Virus record (IMG/VR): IMGVR_UViG_3300047557_000632
Location: 1-20,597 of that record
Origin: a virus
Strand: one strand, 5' to 3'
Length of the DNA stretch: 20,597 nucleotides
The position numbers and the translations under genes were made by a program. Shown piece after piece: positions 1,722-15,753 of this stretch. Position 1 is the stretch's first letter, and each line of letters opens with the position of its first letter. The notes beneath the pieces were generated by a model that ran no database searches, was not told where the DNA came from, and worked only from the letters and a program-made list of their open reading frames with translations.

Positions 1722-2012
1722 TTAACCCCACGGAAGCGGTGGGTCAATCGTTGAGGGTGACTGCTTTTCCTGAAGCCTTGTACTAACAATCTCTTCCGTT
1801 CCTTCCTTACTGACTTTCTGCCAGACCCATCCTAAAACCTGATCTTGTGTAAGGCTGTTGTAAGGTGTGAAATCACCGCTAGGAGGGCTTAACAATGTCA
1901 CTCCTGAGAATGACTCATCCGCCTCGCTTACGGTCCACGAAGCCGCTATAACAACGTCTGAGAGACCATCTACGATGGGTTTTATTTCTAGTTTGGTGAT
2001 CTGCCAGTTCAT
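1722..2012 (-). CDS. Small conserved-type phage protein next to the tail-tip gene
   Basis: 96 residues. Layout: MNWQITKLEIKPIVDGLSDVV, a strand with ASWTVS, then FTPYNSLTQDQVLGWVW, and an end in IDPPLPWG. I associate this layout with a small domain of unknown function common in aquatic phages (lysine/proline N-terminus, 'FTPYxxLTxDQVxGWV' core, 'PPPW' end). It starts in an ATGA overlap with the tail-tip gene. A role as a virion or fibre accessory protein is inferred from position only. Confidence 0.75.
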   Translation of the reverse strand: MNWQITKLEIKPIVDGLSDVVIAASWTVSEADESFSGVTLLSPPSGDFTPYNSLTQDQVLGWVWQKVSKEGTEEIVSTRLQEKQSPSTIDPPLPWG

Positions 2013-5000
2013 TCTAGCTCCGCAAGTCTAGCCTCTAATGCCTCGACCTTATGAATCAACTCTAACAATGCAAGATCTTTTAGCATTTGAAATTTAGTGT
2101 TGTCGAAAGTTAAAACTCGATCATTTGTTCCCGGCACTTTTTGATAATCGCCATTGGGAAGCATTGGTGATTCAACTAAAGCCTCTGCAATGCCTGCGCC
2201 GACTTGCTGCGCCGTATAACCCCAGACTGGATTAGATGCTTCATGCTTCCATTTCCAAATAACCGGCTTGCCAATTGCTTTTATAGCCTCCAGTGCATTA
2301 GGAACCGGAATGTCGCCTAAGACATCTTTCATCCTCGCATCAGAGGTTAGCGTCGACCACGTTGCGGTTGACCCTCGCTGATTGATATAAACGCCCGCAT
2401 AGGTTCCGCCTGACAGCGTGTAATACACCATATTCCCGGTCGTGAGATTGGTGTTCTCTGATCCTAAAAATGTTTGCAGGGTCGCTGTAGATCCGGTCCC
2501 CGCTGCACCAACTACTGAAGTCGAGCCGTTCTTAAATCCACCGACATAGGTTTCCGAAACAAGCCCACTTGTAATCTTGCTGCCGGGAAGATTAGGAATG
2601 TCTGACGCGCTAAGACTGATCGTCCCGCCGAGCGTAAGACTTCCGCTTGTCGTAACCGTCCCGCTTAAAGTGATCCCAGAAACAGATCCGGTTCCACTAA
2701 CGCTCGTAACCGTTCCCGAACCTCCTGCTGGAGTGGCAAACGTTCCATCGCCTCTCAGGAATTGAGTCGTAGAGCCGTTGAAGGCAGAGAAATTATAAGA
2801 ACCGTATCTGATAGTTCCGCTGCGGATATTTAGCGCATAACCTGAAGAGTCTGCAATCGAGACTTCCGTTCCGCCGCTCGTGTTGTATCCCCTGACAGCA
2901 GCCGAATAAGATCCATCCTGATAGCCTAAGAAACCACTGACTACACCTGAGCCGTAATCTCTGGTTCCACTTGCACCCGACCGAATGTTTGTCGAGCCCG
3001 TTCCTACCCACGCTCCTAATGTGCCTTCAATCGAAGCATCAACTGTTTTTGCGTAATAACCATAGGAACTGTTACTAAGCCCCGTGACGTTGGGAATCTC
3101 TGCGCTTGCTCCTACTGCCGTCGATCCGGTGATGACAGGGTTAAGCCTTAGTAGTGCGTCTGTGCTTGTGCCAGTGCCTCCAAACGTCGCTAGTAATGTA
3201 TTACTAGAGTTGTAAACCGCAACCTTATTAGAGACTCCCTTGTTGATCTCGACCCGCTGCGCCCCGCTTACGCCCGTAACTAACTCACCTCTAAGATATG
3301 CAGCATTTGCATAGAGGTTTCCTGAAGGTTGATCGAGATACCAGCCGAGGGTTCCAAAGTTTGTGGTTGTCGGAGGAGTCGGCCCGTTGTAGTTATCTGA
3401 CCTAATGCTTTGAAAGATAGACGCGGCAATCGGACCCGTCCACGCTGTTGAGTTAGCCGGAACACCGTCCACCGTAACTGCATTGGCGTTATAGCGTCCT
3501 TGTATGTACCAAAGCACTTGCCCGATGGCAACCGCAGGAGTTGATGAGGACCAGCCGCTAGGAACCGCAGATCCAGAGGTCGGAGTCGTAAAGGTTGGTG
3601 CTGATGCGCTTTGTGATTGAACCAAATAAGCTGTTAGCGCAGCAATCCCTACTAAGCCAGAACTGCCCGTTGGACCGGTCACAGACGATCCTGTTGGGCC
3701 TTGCGACCCCGTGGGGCCTGTTGGTCCCGCCAAAGCCGTTGGAGACCAAACTAATACTGAACTTGTAGCCGAGAGCGAACTTTTAGCCGAGTCATTTTCT
3801 ACAGAGAAAGCGAAGTAATAACTGCCCGCAGAAAGTGTAATGTTGTCGAACTTGAAACTTGATGAGTTGGCAAACGTAGAGCCATTGGAAAGAATGGTTG
3901 AACTCCAGACTTTCCAATCCGTAGCCGCTGGGCTTGCAGATGTTGTGTAAAACAACGTGATCGCCGTGACTCTTCCGACTGCTGGCATCGTGCAAGTAGC
4001 CGAGAAAGTCGGAGGAGCTGCCGAAGGTGCTAGATCTCCAATGACCGGAGCATTCAGTGAAGAGAAGTAATTAGGACTCGGCAGGCTTGAATTGGGGGCC
4101 GCGGTAAAGGCGGTAATGCTCGCATCGTCGTAGACCACCGCGTTGTACTCAGAAAGCTCTAGGCTTGCACCGAGGTTGCCATCATCGACAGTCGCCTCGG
4201 ATACCTTCATCACTCTAAAGAGCTTATTCGTCCATCCGTAGTCAGAGTTTGTAATATCAACCACATCTCCCGCGTCAACCTGAATGCCGGGGTAAGTGGA
4301 AGTGATCGTGACGATCAAATCCTCTCTAGCTTGCTCAAGCCTACGATTGCCTAAGTATTGAGCCTGTACAGAGTCGTTTGTAAACTCTAGGGTTGTTGTC
4401 TGTCTGTTGGGTGGCTCGTTGGGATATAAGAGACCCGCGGGTGTCTCCATATAAACAAGATCCGGCTGATCTCTGTTTAATTTAGATGGAAACTCAATTT
4501 GGATTTGGTTGATTTGCTGATTGATGTCTGTGGCCGAAACTCTGATCTCGCCGATAAGATTTGTATCATTAAATGAAAAGGTCGAGCTTTCCGATTTGTT
4601 GATGACAATCGACCAAAGACCCGAAGCCGCGTTGTAAGCCATCCAACTATCTGAACACTCCAGCATCTTCTCGACGTTCTCAAGGACTGGCCTTCCTGTG
4701 TCGACTACGCCGTTAATCCTGTAGCGAGCTTGCGTAGCTGAACCGCCGCCTGCTGGTGTGTATGTGATCGTTTGATCGGAGTAAGTATTGAGAGCCGTCG
4801 AGCTTGTAGAGTCCACTAGGCCCGTCATGCCAGCGCCGTACCTTGTGTCCGTCATGTAGTCGTACCAGACATCTCCGGGCTTCGCTACAGATCCGCCTTT
4901 AGGGTAGTGCTTGCAGTAAAAGGTAATAGGTTGGAGACTGGTTGTCCCTGCGTCTGCGCTGTAATTAAGTTTGACAATCGCAAAGGCTAAACCATTCATC

Positions 5001-5560
5001 TGCCGACCCGAAGAAGGCCAACGGAGCGCGACAGGAATATCTGATCCGCCCATAAATACATTAGGTGCGGTTCCGTTTACAGATGTAATCGTTCCTGCAT
5101 TTGTCGATGTGTAAAGACTGATATACAGATTACCGGAGATTTTTGTGTCGACATTTCCATCACCGTCGGTCAGAGACACTACTTTAGTCTGGTCTGTTCC
5201 GTCAAAAGTGACTAAGCGATCACCGTAGTAAAACTTTGCGCGGTCATAAGAGAATGTCGCACTTGCATCTGATGAGATGGAACTGATCGCAAGAACGTAA
5301 TACATCGTCTTTTGATCGCTCGACAAGACTGCGTCAACAAAAACGCCACCTAGCCACGCATCACCATAAACAACAGGGATTGAGTTGTTGTTAGCTGGAG
5401 GGACCTGTTGCCTTGCGCCAGTGTCCTGTGAGTTTGGAGGCTTAGACCCAAAGACTCTTGTGATGACATAAGAAACGGCAAAGTTAACCGCAAAGGTCGC
5501 CGCAGCAAACGCTACCGTTCCGGCTGTAAAAAAGTAAGCTGCAACAATTGATCCGGGCAT
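2009..5560 (-). CDS. Tail-tip host-attachment protein (J-like) with C-terminal S74 intramolecular chaperone
   Basis: 1183 residues. Residues 5-37 are hydrophobic, as often seen in such tail-tip proteins. Then comes a conserved-type start (NSIPVVYGDAWLGGVFVDAV, 59-78) and a long beta-rich region. About 503-605 resembles a fibronectin III-like domain, about 608-633 is a short collagen-like run ([15 protein letters not shown]), and 633-1060 is a Ser/Thr/Gly-rich fibre that probably includes receptor-binding parts and a GTVTSVSGTGSVSG repeat near 948. The end is a Peptidase S74 domain starting at SDARMKD, with the Ser1073-Lys1078 dyad spaced as in endosialidase-type chaperones, and a final coiled coil. 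After trimer folding the chaperone should cut itself off before Ser1073. The stop overlaps the next start (ATGA). Confidence 0.88.
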   Translation of the reverse strand: MPGSIVAAYFFTAGTVAFAAATFAVNFAVSYVITRVFGSKPPNSQDTGARQQVPPANNNSIPVVYGDAWLGGVFVDAVLSSDQKTMYYVLAISSISSDASATFSYDRAKFYYGDRLVTFDGTDQTKVVSLTDGDGNVDTKISGNLYISLYTSTNAGTITSVNGTAPNVFMGGSDIPVALRWPSSGRQMNGLAFAIVKLNYSADAGTTSLQPITFYCKHYPKGGSVAKPGDVWYDYMTDTRYGAGMTGLVDSTSSTALNTYSDQTITYTPAGGGSATQARYRINGVVDTGRPVLENVEKMLECSDSWMAYNAASGLWSIVINKSESSTFSFNDTNLIGEIRVSATDINQQINQIQIEFPSKLNRDQPDLVYMETPAGLLYPNEPPNRQTTTLEFTNDSVQAQYLGNRRLEQAREDLIVTITSTYPGIQVDAGDVVDITNSDYGWTNKLFRVMKVSEATVDDGNLGASLELSEYNAVVYDDASITAFTAAPNSSLPSPNYFSSLNAPVIGDLAPSAAPPTFSATCTMPAVGRVTAITLFYTTSASPAATDWKVWSSTILSNGSTFANSSSFKFDNITLSAGSYYFAFSVENDSAKSSLSATSSVLVWSPTALAGPTGPTGSQGPTGSSVTGPTGSSGLVGIAALTAYLVQSQSASAPTFTTPTSGSAVPSGWSSSTPAVAIGQVLWYIQGRYNANAVTVDGVPANSTAWTGPIAASIFQSIRSDNYNGPTPPTTTNFGTLGWYLDQPSGNLYANAAYLRGELVTGVSGAQRVEINKGVSNKVAVYNSSNTLLATFGGTGTSTDALLRLNPVITGSTAVGASAEIPNVTGLSNSSYGYYAKTVDASIEGTLGAWVGTGSTNIRSGASGTRDYGSGVVSGFLGYQDGSYSAAVRGYNTSGGTEVSIADSSGYALNIRSGTIRYGSYNFSAFNGSTTQFLRGDGTFATPAGGSGTVTSVSGTGSVSGITLSGTVTTSGSLTLGGTISLSASDIPNLPGSKITSGLVSETYVGGFKNGSTSVVGAAGTGSTATLQTFLGSENTNLTTGNMVYYTLSGGTYAGVYINQRGSTATWSTLTSDARMKDVLGDIPVPNALEAIKAIGKPVIWKWKHEASNPVWGYTAQQVGAGIAEALVESPMLPNGDYQKVPGTNDRVLTFDNTKFQMLKDLALLELIHKVEALEARLAELE

Positions 5561-11917: not shown

Positions 11918-12562
11918 TCACATTACGAGTGGCTTGTACACGCGCAAAAGCTGATCCACTGCAAAAGGAATCTGCTTTAGATTCTCAGCGGATGTAGCCG
12001 AGCGATTGTTGTACAAGTGAGTGAGAAGCATGAGACCGGCCTGCTTGACTACAGGATACTGACCGATTACAGAGCCTTGTAAGGTGTACTGGCAAAGCAT
12101 TGGCGCGGTCATATAGGTGTTGATGTTGTTGGGAACCTCGAAGAGAACAATCTTGTTCCCAGTGGGGTCGTAGTAATAGTTTGAGCTTGTAATCGTCGTT
12201 AAGACCGGAGGATTTAGGTCGTTGTAATACTTCACCCAGTTTATCGTCACGCCATTCTGCGAGACTTCGGGTAAATCAAGGCTTACAGGTGCAGCCATAA
12301 GCCCCGAAATCATGTAGGAAGCCTGATAGGTGACGTTAAAGACCGGGACACCTAAATAATCCTCAATCGCCATCCTTGTGGCGAGCTCCAACTGAGCAAG
12401 GTAATCGTCCTGTGACTCATCCTGAAATAAATTCAACTGGTTGGTGATTTCTTCGTAAGTAAGCCATTGAGTGACCGAATCTCGACCACTCTGAATGACC
12501 TTCGAGTAGTTGAACGGGTTTCTGGAACCCGCTCCGAAGTTACCTTGCAGTTGTGATGGCAT
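11918..12562 (-). CDS. Head-tail connector protein (HK97 gp6-like)
   Basis: 214 residues. It resembles connector proteins that form the ring under the portal. The pattern YEEITNQLNLFQDESQDDYL followed by LELATRMAIEDYLG (about 36-70), and near the end LLTHLYNNRSATSAENLKQIPFAVDQLLRVYK, is the usual 'helix, ring, IP-x-AV-x-LL' layout of the family. The middle is a longer beta-rich insertion than in the shortest family members. It starts one base after the capsid 2 stop and precedes the head-closure gene. Confidence 0.8.
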   Translation of the reverse strand: MPSQLQGNFGAGSRNPFNYSKVIQSGRDSVTQWLTYEEITNQLNLFQDESQDDYLAQLELATRMAIEDYLGVPVFNVTYQASYMISGLMAAPVSLDLPEVSQNGVTINWVKYYNDLNPPVLTTITSSNYYYDPTGNKIVLFEVPNNINTYMTAPMLCQYTLQGSVIGQYPVVKQAGLMLLTHLYNNRSATSAENLKQIPFAVDQLLRVYKPLVM

Positions 12563-12563
12563 C

Positions 12564-13592
12564 TTAGGTTCCGATCAAACGTACACCGGCAGTTACATCA
12601 CGAACGGTCGAGACCATCCGCTTCTCAGCATATATCGTAATCGTTCCGGGCTGGGTCTGCTCCATTCTCTGAAGCGTCATCTCTGAATGATCGACGATCC
12701 ACATAAACCGCGGCCAGTTTGCAAGATAGATTGGAGAAGCACCGATTGCAGGAGCATCCAAATAAGGATTAGCAATAACCGGCCAGCCCATAATGTTTAC
12801 CGCAGGGCCTTCGTCTTTCTCGCCTGTCTCAACAAGCGCATAAGAATTACCACCGTGAGCGTATTCCCTCAGCGTTGCAATAGCTGTCGGGTGCATCATC
12901 CACGCAGTTCCGGGCATTCTCCAAAACTGACCGGGGAGGGCACTAGCAACATCTACAAGGCTTTCCCACTCAATGCCGCCTGAGTGGGTATAACCCACGG
13001 TATTAAGTGTGTGTATGCCAGCCGTTATAGCCGTTCCTGACGTTCCGTAAGCAGCGGATGATCCAGCAGTACCAGCGTACATCTTCAAGCCTCTGAGACC
13101 GTTTGTAGCGCCTGTGGAGGTTGTTGTTGAGCCTGCCTGATCGTTATTGATTGCCATAGACGCAGCTTCAATTTGGCTGAATTCCATTGCAAGATCTTCG
13201 ACAAGCGCAGCGTCTAATCCGTTGATGTCATCCATCGCCGCTGCCCTGATTGGCATCTGAGCGGAAATAACACGCATCGGAAGCTGCCAAATACTGGTGG
13301 CGATGTTGGGTGAGCCTGAGTTAGCGTTAACCGTGTAGCCCCACGGGTTAGTGGAGTTAGCAGCGTTACCCGTCTTAACGACAAACTGAATATCCGAGTC
13401 TGCCGTCATTGTCTGATTTGCATAAACCCGAAAAGGGTTCCAGTAACGAAGCGATGCAAACACATCCTCGTTATATACGCGACCGCCAACCCCGCTGCCT
13501 GAGCCGGTTAGGGCTGAGGCTTCCGAGAGGTTGACAGTGCTTTTGCCCTCGTGGAGAGCCTCTTTCAAGCCTTCCAAAATCACCTGTTTCAT
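12564..13592 (-). CDS. Second capsid protein, paralog of major capsid protein 1, lacking the delta domain
   Basis: 342 residues from the ATG at 13592, chosen because GGAGAG lies just before it. A longer TTG start at 13634 would read through a stable hairpin. The body aligns along its whole length with capsid protein 1: EASALTGSG, VGGR, VKTGNA, WGYTV, ATSIWQ, AQMPIRAAAMDDINGLDA, NNDQ, GLRGL, and the end GTITIYAEKRMVSTVRDVTAGVR. Only about 20 residues (MKQVILEGLKEALHEG...) precede EASALTG, so the coiled-coil scaffold domain is missing. It may be a vertex protein, a co-assembling minor shell subunit or the remnant of a duplication. The frame is intact and the conserved core is kept, which suggests function. 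T4 gp23/gp24 is a known precedent for two related shell proteins in one particle. Confidence 0.88.
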   Translation of the reverse strand: MKQVILEGLKEALHEGKSTVNLSEASALTGSGSGVGGRVYNEDVFASLRYWNPFRVYANQTMTADSDIQFVVKTGNAANSTNPWGYTVNANSGSPNIATSIWQLPMRVISAQMPIRAAAMDDINGLDAALVEDLAMEFSQIEAASMAINNDQAGSTTTSTGATNGLRGLKMYAGTAGSSAAYGTSGTAITAGIHTLNTVGYTHSGGIEWESLVDVASALPGQFWRMPGTAWMMHPTAIATLREYAHGGNSYALVETGEKDEGPAVNIMGWPVIANPYLDAPAIGASPIYLANWPRFMWIVDHSEMTLQRMEQTQPGTITIYAEKRMVSTVRDVTAGVRLIGT

Positions 13593-13595
13593 AGT

Positions 13596-13601
13596 CTCTC
13601 C
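13596..13601 (-). promoter_or_regulatory. Ribosome binding site deciding the second capsid gene start
   Basis: GGAGAG, with ATG at 13592 only 3 bases beyond (5 bases from GGAG). It favours initiation here over the upstream TTG at 13634 that overlaps the previous stop codon. Confidence 0.65.
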
Positions 13602-13626
13602 AAAAGGGAGAGGGCTTGCGCCCTCT
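13602..13626 (-). promoter_or_regulatory. GNRA-loop hairpin with short U-run between the two capsid genes
   Basis: On the minus strand AGAGGGC pairs perfectly with GCCCTCT (7 base pairs, 13626-13620 with 13615-13609) across a GCAA tetraloop. It is followed by CCC and then TTTT. It lies between the stop of capsid protein 1 and the ribosome binding site of capsid protein 2. The U-run is short and displaced by three C, so it is at best a leaky terminator; an RNA-stability or processing element is the alternative. Confidence 0.55.
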
Positions 13627-13630
13627 TTGA

Positions 13631-14980
13631 TCAAGCAGCCGTACCGGTCGAACGATAACGCACACCAGCGTTAGGATCGCGCACCGAAGTGGCTGCACGA
13701 GTCTCGCCGTAGAACGTGATCGAACCGGGGAGCGTCTGGTCGTAGCGACGGAGAACCATCGAGAGACGCATAACGATGGTGTGGAACTGCTGCCAATCCG
13801 CGAAATACATCGGATAGTAGGAGGTCGTTCCTGCTGCGCCGGTGGTGGGCTGGCTGGGGTTATCAAGGTACTTGTTGACTGCAACCTTGAAGCCGAGCAA
13901 CTCACCAACGATGCCATCGGTACGTGACAGACCGTCGATGTAGATCGGACGCTTCTGATCGTCCACGAGGCCGCGGATGCCCTGAAGCAGGATCGGGTTA
14001 ATCATGAACGCTGCTGTCGGTGTCCAATACTGCTGTGGCAAGCTATAAATAAAGTTCACTACGTCTTTGTAGTTCACGTTATTTGCCGCGACTGTGTTGG
14101 CGTTTGTGGTCAACTGATCGTAGGTAGCAAGCGAGTGCAGACCGTTGGTAGTTGCAGTTCCCGAAGTACCGAAAGCAGCCGTCGAGCAAGAACCGCCCGT
14201 GTAGGTTGCATTAGCGCCAGCGTACTGATCCAAACCGCGCAGACCATCAGCACCGCCCGTCGTTACCGAGGTTCCGGTTCCCGACTGATCGTTGTTCTGG
14301 ATCATCGAGGTTGCCATTGCCTGCTGGAACTCCATCAACATATCGTCAACAACGTTAGCCTCAAGGCCGTCGATGTCATCGAGTGCTGCCGTACGGATGG
14401 GGAACTGAGCATTCAAGTCCTTAAGGATTACTTGCCAAATGCTTGTGGCTTCAGTCGTGGATGCGCCGTTGTTCTGAACGGTGTAGCCCCACTGAGCGCC
14501 TGCATTGCCGGTCTTGACGCGGAACTGATAAGCCGAACCGTCAGTTGCAACGATGCGCGACAGATCCATCAAAGGATTTCCGAGACGCTTTGCAGCGAAC
14601 ACGGGATCGTAAGCTGTGCGGCCACCAACGTCGTAGCCAGAACCCGTAAGAGCCGAGGCTTCCTTGATGTACGCTTCGCACTGATCGACCGATTCAAAGA
14701 TCTTGACTTCACGCTCAATGTTGTTACCGGCCTTCATGTACTCCTTAAGAACGTCTTTGAAACGACGATTTGCTTCGCCACGAACGGTCTTGTGAATAGG
14801 ACGGATGATAGAAGGAGCGGCAACTTTTGCCTCTAAAGCGGCAATCTTTGCTTCGGTTTCAGTTTTAAGCGACTCGACAACCTCGGCAACTTTTGCTTCA
14901 ACAGCTTGAGCGGTTTCTGCCAATTTGGCAGCGCTAGATGCTTCGATTGCATCTAATTTTTCAATGACTTTTTCCAACAT
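13631..14980 (-). CDS. Major capsid protein 1, HK97 fold, with N-terminal scaffolding (delta) domain
   Basis: 449 residues. Residues 1-55 are an Ala/Glu/Lys-rich coiled coil and about 56-106 a charged linker; together they match the delta domain that acts as internal scaffold in HK97. The mature shell protein probably begins near Glu107 (K106-EASALTGSG), close to where HK97 is cut after about 103 residues; the exact site is inference. The body has family-like stretches such as VKTGNA, WGYTV, ATSIWQ, DDIDGLEANVVDD, GLRGL, and a C-terminal QTLPGSITFYGETR...VRDPNAGVR, typical of the P-domain and A-domain ends. It is immediately followed by a clear paralog. Strong ribosome binding site upstream. 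This is the likely main shell protein. Confidence 0.94.
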   Translation of the reverse strand: MLEKVIEKLDAIEASSAAKLAETAQAVEAKVAEVVESLKTETEAKIAALEAKVAAPSIIRPIHKTVRGEANRRFKDVLKEYMKAGNNIEREVKIFESVDQCEAYIKEASALTGSGYDVGGRTAYDPVFAAKRLGNPLMDLSRIVATDGSAYQFRVKTGNAGAQWGYTVQNNGASTTEATSIWQVILKDLNAQFPIRTAALDDIDGLEANVVDDMLMEFQQAMATSMIQNNDQSGTGTSVTTGGADGLRGLDQYAGANATYTGGSCSTAAFGTSGTATTNGLHSLATYDQLTTNANTVAANNVNYKDVVNFIYSLPQQYWTPTAAFMINPILLQGIRGLVDDQKRPIYIDGLSRTDGIVGELLGFKVAVNKYLDNPSQPTTGAAGTTSYYPMYFADWQQFHTIVMRLSMVLRRYDQTLPGSITFYGETRAATSVRDPNAGVRYRSTGTAA

Positions 14981-14988
14981 TTTGAAAT

Positions 14989-14993
14989 CTCCT
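14989..14993 (-). promoter_or_regulatory. Strong ribosome binding site of the major capsid gene
   Basis: AGGAG 8 bases before the ATG at 14980. It overlaps the protease stop codon. A strong site here fits the need for several hundred capsid copies per particle. Confidence 0.7.
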
Positions 14994-15753
14994 AACGGGT
15001 TGAAATAGCTTTGAGCAACTCTCGGTATTCGAGCGCTTTCAGCAACTCCGCCGCATCAGACTCACTCTGAGTGGCAGTTTGTTGATCGCCCACAGCATCA
15101 CGCTGTTCCAAAATGGCTTTCAACACACCGGACGCGGCGGTCGCATCCCGGCGAGATAGCCCTGCATCACGCAAAGCCTTCTCAATCGTTCTCGGATTGG
15201 GTTTTGAGCCCATCCAGTACTCAAGTCTACTGATCTCAGCCTTCGGATTATTAGGCTGCATCACGATAGAAACCTCGGCCAGACCACCTTTGACGATCTG
15301 AAAGAACATGTCTGGATCGTCTGTAGGCTCACCATTCTCATCAACCATCTGATACTCATCTGCGTAAGCACCGACAGAAACGCCGCCAACCATCCGCGGG
15401 CTTTCCTTCATGATCGTATAAAGATCAGACCCGGAAGTGGTGTTCAGGAAGATCTTTCCTGTGCCGGTCATGCCTTCGTCCGTAATATCGAACTTCGACC
15501 ACTCACCGACAGGCATCATGTCGCTTGAATGTTGAAAATACATCGGAAGCGGCCTTCCTGCTTCCATCCACATCTCGTGCCACGCCTCAAAAGCCTCGGG
15601 TGTGTAAAAGAACCGTCGACCGTCTGCGCCTTCTCTCGCGCCCCACGTCGTAAGTGTGGCTTCGATTTCACCCGTGGGCTCGCCCGTTGCCTCGTCGGCT
15701 TTCCTGCCTAGCTCAACTTTGGCTTCGTAGAAAAAAGTGATGTTCTTAGCCAT
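14992..15753 (-). CDS. Prohead maturation protease, HK97 family (S78)
   Basis: 253 residues. This serine protease is packaged inside the prohead, removes the N-terminal scaffolding domain of the capsid protein and then digests itself. Likely catalytic residues are His75 in PMYFQHSSD, Ser126 in GGVSVGAYAD and Glu160 in LAEVSIVMQPNNP, in the order and context typical of the family. The C-terminal 70 residues are charged and helical, probably a self-cleaved or scaffold-interacting tail. AAGGA lies 8 bases upstream of the ATG. The gene lies directly before the capsid gene whose product is its expected substrate. Confidence 0.93.
   Translation of the reverse strand: MAKNITFFYEAKVELGRKADEATGEPTGEIEATLTTWGAREGADGRRFFYTPEAFEAWHEMWMEAGRPLPMYFQHSSDMMPVGEWSKFDITDEGMTGTGKIFLNTTSGSDLYTIMKESPRMVGGVSVGAYADEYQMVDENGEPTDDPDMFFQIVKGGLAEVSIVMQPNNPKAEISRLEYWMGSKPNPRTIEKALRDAGLSRRDATAASGVLKAILEQRDAVGDQQTATQSESDAAELLKALEYRELLKAISTR

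Follow-up and report, generated by a model that had tools for sequence, protein, structure and literature searches.

Two adjacent HK97-fold capsid paralogues, the second without the long N-terminal domain, conserved as a pair in a family of phages: a possible parallel to the T4 head

In the head of phage T4, gp24 makes up the 11 pentameric vertices and is probably a duplicate of the major shell protein gp23; 10 N-terminal residues are cleaved from gp24 and 65 from gp23, and bypass mutations in gp23, some of them in the axial domain, allow it to replace gp24 (PMC9958956). The two proteins are HK97-fold paralogues, 28% identical over 278 columns, whose genes lie in the order major then minor in a genome of 168,903 bases which also encodes separate scaffold proteins. 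Behind gene 23 come a hairpin with T6 (-12.9 kcal/mol in its best 40-nt window, just short of the -13 kcal/mol used as threshold below), then segD and then gene 24, itself followed by a further hairpin (-14.3). In contrast, phage JBD30 (37-kb genome, T=7 shell, 415 copies of the major capsid protein, MCP) has one MCP, from which its pentamers are also built, and a decoration protein, gp39, of another fold (PMC11445458); thus a separate penton protein is not needed by phages of this kind. A match which had made JBD30 look like a second case with two MCPs proved to be a coincidence of text, since the paper describes one.

A simpler arrangement is found in HK97 and in Burkholderia phage KS9, where a protease gene is followed by an MCP (gp5 in both) with an N-terminal domain, by an annotated putative terminator in HK97 or a strong hairpin in KS9, and by a connector gene, with one annotated MCP in the stretches examined and no paralogue behind the hairpin. 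The Rhodobacter capsulatus gene transfer agent (GTA) also has one capsid protein. The closest described phage to the locus analysed here is Methylophilaceae phage P19250A (KX815270), the only one of 50,697 phage records to carry the pair of genes reported below. In the 38,749-base genome of this siphovirus the protease and the second capsid gene are annotated as 'hypothetical protein' and the first capsid gene as 'gene transfer agent capsid protein'. Phage Venkman belongs to the same genus-level cluster as P19250A, and its annotated genes include 'a capsid protein' (PMC8163748); the hits in those phage records do not include it. In the open-licence literature, as far as its available text extends, no description of a siphophage with two MCPs, or of this pair, was found.

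The window, that is, the whole 20,597-base virus record analysed, carries a run of head and tail genes on its minus strand in the order terminase small subunit, terminase large subunit, portal, a 99-aa ORF, prohead protease, MCP1, MCP2, head-tail adaptor and tail genes. MCP1 (13631..14980, minus strand, 449 aa) is the main HK97-fold capsid protein and has an N-terminal delta or scaffold-like domain; MCP2 (12564..13592, minus strand, 342 aa) is its paralogue without such a domain. The prohead (head maturation) protease (14992..15753, minus strand) lies directly upstream of MCP1 and an Ad1-like head-tail adaptor (11918..12562, minus strand) directly downstream of MCP2, an arrangement kept in 74 of 74 testable representatives for the protease and in 71 of 72 for the adaptor, the sole exception being L266, where the ORF matching the adaptor and the end of MCP2 overlap. 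The ORF list begins MCP2 at a TTG at 13634, overlapping the MCP1 stop, while the likely start, judged from the sequence, is the ATG at 13592, with GGAGAG just 5' of it. Among the tail genes, a large tail-tip protein contains a collagen-like GPTGPTG stretch (2009-5560), and a GPVGPVG-repeat ORF on the plus strand (46-1122) could be the antisense of a gene for a collagen-like fibre.

That MCP1 and MCP2 are adjacent same-strand HK97-fold capsid paralogues, as proposed in an earlier note made on this DNA, is confirmed. They are 41% identical over 348 columns (BLASTP, E 9e-74), and profile-profile comparison with 29 relatives each aligned residues 102-445 of MCP1 with 21-342 of MCP2 (E 7.9e-87), values which rule out a chance similarity; the six motifs listed in that note (EASALTGSG, VKTGNA, WGYTV, ATSIWQ, NNDQ, GLRGL) and the common C-terminus all appear in the BLASTP alignment. 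Both proteins match PF05065 (MCP1 E 5.5e-21, 75.6 bits; MCP2 E 3.2e-19, 69.8 bits; curated cut-off 24.2 bits) and TIGR01554 (91.3 and 62.6 bits, respectively; cut-off 27.5 bits), the MCP2 match to the latter starting at position 87 of the 385-position profile. The AlphaFold models are of low confidence (mean pLDDT 64.9 for MCP1 and 57.5 for MCP2), and in Foldseek these low-confidence models matched GTA and HK97 capsids with probability 1.00, the GTA capsid being the best structural match of both, followed by HK97-type capsids. The R. capsulatus GTA capsid (6tb9, 6tba) is the closest solved relative of both proteins in sequence as well as in fold.

The asymmetry of the N-termini was also borne out. 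In the profile-profile comparison nothing aligned ahead of MCP1 102 and MCP2 21, so that MCP1 has about 101 residues and MCP2 about 20 before the shared homology, and the difference of about 106 against 20 residues given earlier is essentially correct. The N-terminal domain of MCP1 (approximately residues 1-106, 14663..14980, minus strand, border approximate) is absent from MCP2, and the low-confidence model predicts it to be helical, with a long helix at 2-54 and another at 66-83. A helical domain of about 100 residues ahead of the mature fold is therefore present in MCP1 and absent in MCP2. The same holds across the 324 pairs available before the final two scans of viral contigs: the distance from start to the conserved GGR was 30-53 residues in all 324 MCP2 and 110-129 residues in the 284 MCP1 with a defined start (40 pairs lacked one), ranges which do not overlap. 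For MCP2 the start chosen was the furthest upstream of the ATGs lying at most 56 residues from GGR and at least 20 nt past the MCP1 stop; if MCP2 is begun right at that stop, at most 76 residues still precede GGR (323 pairs, without L352). The MCP1 domain would act as scaffold and is probably cleaved by the protease. In MCP2 the short N-terminus (13545-13592 in the window, and in relatives) carries a conserved helix-like segment of about ILxGIKxALxEG.

Conservation of the pair was assessed over 507 listed loci, gathered by eight scans of viral contigs and one of genome contigs, each keeping at most 80 loci, together with P19250A and the window; some of these loci are slices of one contig, and the counts leave out the records of KS9, T4 and HK97, which served for comparison, as well as two slices of the window. 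Both genes are uninterrupted and in the order MCP1-MCP2 in 471 of the 507: the two are conserved neighbours. Neither end is cut in 402 of these pairs, the others running off the fetched DNA, and 321 of the 471 are distinct when compared over the stretch between the end of MCP1 and that of MCP2. One copy is interrupted in four of the 507, MCP1 in L434, L470 and L503 and MCP2 in L283, so that a second copy broken in relatives, which the earlier note had named as evidence against its reading, was met in just one locus. In addition, the end of MCP1 is frameshifted in L464, which is counted among the 471. Since MCP1 too is interrupted in three loci, these breaks, frameshifts or stops and in four of the five loci in MCP1, look like sequence or assembly errors. 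The remaining 32 loci are cut off: 19 hold MCP1 only and 12 MCP2 only, the DNA of these 31 running on for no more than 187 nt where the missing gene would lie, and in L233 neither gene is complete, the first 41 residues of MCP1 alone being present. As all 32 end beside or within the missing gene, there is no true absence among the loci listed.

As members of the family served as seeds of the scans, single-copy relatives may exist further away; none that could root the duplication was found in the genome-contig scan or by tblastn to E 10, which beyond P19250A returned distant MCPs only. The genome-contig scan gave six relatives, five of them carrying both genes (in L173 MCP1 is cut by the contig start) and the sixth, L176, beginning at the contig end. 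These phage-like contigs, L171-L176, which hold the pair or part of it, come from metagenome-assembled genomes filed under Alpha-, Beta- and Gammaproteobacteria, under Rhodocyclaceae and under the archaeon Nitrosotalea, the contig in the archaeal bin being probably misbinned. P19250A has protease, MCP1, hairpin and MCP2 in the same order as the window, with identities of 58.5% for MCP1 and 55.6% for MCP2, and differs from it in a 77-nt gap with a longer hairpin, against the 38 nt of the window.

The gap between the two genes contains a hairpin, an addition to the earlier note. In the window it lies at 13609..13626 (minus strand) within the 38-nt gap, with a 7-bp GC-rich stem and a GCAA loop, and is followed by CCCTTTT, apparently not a clean U-tract; other members of the clade have CCCTCTATGG. 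Eighty representatives were chosen at a mean identity of both proteins of at most 93%, and a gap passed if the most stable 40-nt span after the MCP1 stop reached -13 kcal/mol or lower. With L352, which has an insert, set aside, 79 of 79 representatives passed (median -18.7), compared with 11 of 79 at the MCP2-adaptor junction, 14 of 78 at the protease-MCP1 junction, and 11% on average and 29% at most in other spans of equal width. Against dinucleotide shuffles z was below -2 in 64 of the 79 gaps (-2.2 in that of the window). Among the loci listed, 309 of 310 pairs examined passed; in the exception, L464, the hairpin is present inside the frameshifted MCP1 end, which runs through it. The 80 representatives show 67 distinct stem-loop sequences, and a T-run of at least four lies near the stem end in 60 of them (from 6 nt inside to 12 nt past it), not always directly behind the stem. 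Across the family, then, the gap element is a GC-rich hairpin, in most members with a T-run nearby, resembling an intrinsic terminator. Capsid genes elsewhere are followed by hairpins too, namely in HK97, in KS9 and behind T4 gene 24, so that the feature is not peculiar to the pair; given its presence behind the MCP of HK97 and KS9, the element may predate MCP2, which lies on its connector-gene side. In L352 (4387-4983) an ORF for a homing endonuclease (phrog_314, E 1.7e-15 in PHROGs; no match in Pfam or PDB sequences) sits in the gap behind the hairpin, placed as the GIY-YIG gene segD (on the other strand) is between T4 genes 23 and 24.

The ribosome sites of the two genes also differ on average. 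A Shine-Dalgarno-like 4-mer precedes MCP1 in 80 of 80 representatives and MCP2 in 54 of 80, and anti-SD pairing is stronger for MCP1 in 56, weaker in 23 and equal in one (Wilcoxon p 8.5e-5, the members not being independent). The gap hairpin and the weaker average start site of MCP2 together suggest that less MCP2 than MCP1 would be made. This case is weakest in the window itself, since the hairpin of its clade appears to have no clean U-tract and the Shine-Dalgarno of MCP2 is good there: an SD-like site is present at both genes, that of MCP2 being the GGAGAG at 13596..13601 (minus strand), in agreement with the ribosome site of its own that had been ascribed to it. Also, a hairpin of this kind may merely protect an mRNA end. 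CTCTCC (13607-13612), overlapping the 3' arm of the hairpin, could pair with GGAGAG; of the 16 short-gap variants listed, 15 retain the two stretches. These letters suggest that 13596-13612 may be a two-state RNA element, in which the 3' arm would either close the hairpin or mask the MCP2 ribosome site.

A tree was built from 41 of the 80 pairs, with KS9 gp5 as outgroup. In it a single branch, with a length of 1.51 changes per column and an SH-aLRT support of 100, splits the MCP1 and MCP2 clusters; the overlong outgroup branch gives no position for the root of the duplication. Selection was estimated by the NG86 method on the 241 of 3160 representative pairs that were unsaturated, where the median dN/dS was 0.20 for MCP1 and 0.23 for MCP2, and on 2562 non-independent pairs in the window clade, where it was 0.050 and 0.055. 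These similar values indicate that both genes are kept under comparable constraint. If MCP2 were a spare copy, redundant or in decay and serving no necessary function, its somewhat faster change (median MCP2/MCP1 dN ratio 1.37) and the one split copy, in L283, would find an explanation; nevertheless, such decay is ruled out as a general account by purifying selection at these levels in MCP2 and by the 471 uninterrupted pairs of 507 listed. With no true absence among the loci listed, and with breaks that look like sequence errors since MCP1 shows them too, this explanation is left with very little probability, and the intact frame stressed in the earlier note holds well beyond the window.

Three further readings concern the place of a functional MCP2, and on these the pattern of conserved positions has to be weighed. 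Over the 80 representatives, 78 positions are conserved alike (at least 85% in each protein), spread over the N-arm, E-loop, spine, axial and peripheral parts, while 18 are conserved differently. Mapped toward the pentamer interface on weak models, 7 of these 18 fall in the axial domain, which comprises 147 of 342 residues, so there is no enrichment, the domain borders being set from low-confidence models. MCP1 has insertions of its own, three in the presumed axial domain (7, 7 and 8 residues) and one of 4 residues at the C-terminus; MCP2 has 3 extra residues in the E-loop and a single one at position 226. The spread of the differing positions over several domains would suit a minor shell subunit without vertex specificity, mixed into hexamers or placed only around the portal vertex, where MCP2 would tune head size, stability or portal fit; conserved pairing, absence of the scaffold domain and a probably lower expression fit this equally well. 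Such a subunit seems rather unlikely, however, as all three paralogue-specific inserts of at least 7 residues lie in the presumed axial domain, and the described HK97-fold shell paralogue of T4 is a vertex protein. More doubtful still is a protein outside the shell proper, acting as decoration, as assembly chaperone or in an alternative small particle with the HK97 fold reused: the conserved helix-like segment at the N-terminus of MCP2 would agree with it, but the 78 positions conserved alike are what is expected if lattice contacts were kept, and the decoration protein described for JBD30, gp39, has another fold. As a class, a minor shell paralogue is strongly favoured for MCP2, and the vertex protein is its likeliest member, at about even odds on the present comparison.

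The reading preferred here, which has an even chance of being right, is that MCP2 joins MCP1 in the shell as the scarcer partner, most likely as the vertex pentamer, in parallel with gp24. The head would be built from two paralogous HK97-fold proteins, of which MCP1, with its scaffold-like and probably cleaved N-terminal domain, would be abundant and form the hexamers that make up the bulk of the shell. MCP2 would be kept scarcer by its on average weaker ribosome site and by the hairpin that follows MCP1, near which most members have a T-run. MCP2, derived from an old duplication and without the scaffold-like domain, would co-assemble on the prohead driven by MCP1 and most likely supply the pentamers of all vertices but the portal one, 11 in number, as does gp24 in the T4 head. 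In a T=7 shell such as that of JBD30 (415 copies), about 360 MCP1 and 55 MCP2 would be expected. Of the interpretation put forward in the earlier note, in which a second protein without scaffold assembles on the first, for example at vertices, the absence of decay, the conservation as neighbours, the missing N-terminal domain and the T4 parallel stood; the differing positions did not gather in the axial domain.

The parallel with T4 covers HK97-fold paralogues in the order major then minor, a shorter N-terminal peptide in the minor protein, and a hairpin with a T-run behind the major gene. MCP2, like gp24, is a paralogue of the MCP with a short N-terminal peptide, encoded beside it. The systems differ in the identity between paralogues (41% for MCP1 and MCP2), in the far larger T4 genome with its separate scaffold proteins, in segD between the genes, and in the hairpin following gene 24, none being found behind MCP2 of P19250A. 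MCP2 and gp24 show no detectable sequence relation (E 0.94 in a single comparison), and no T4 chain is among the three PDB sequence matches, so membership of MCP2 in the gp24 family is rejected. Moreover, the vertex role is known for gp24, whereas for MCP2 we infer it, together with the lower expression and co-assembly.

The annotation of P19250A can be corrected in this context, since its MCP2 (P19250A_0006, KX815270 6066-7124), filed as 'hypothetical protein', scores 50.4 bits against TIGR01554, above the capsid-model cut-off of 27.5. It is conceivable, although we give it somewhat less than an even chance, that the family containing P19250A has evolved, independently of T4, a similar shell made of a scaffold-bearing hexamer protein and a scaffold-less penton protein, in a ratio set by the hairpin at their boundary, which in the window clade would possibly be two-state. 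T4 alone hardly explains why pentamers and hexamers share one protein in many HK97-type shells but not in T4, which uses two. If the proposal is true, a second, unrelated and smaller system with a T4-like division of labour would offer an independent case in which the changes that make a pentamer specialist can be studied.
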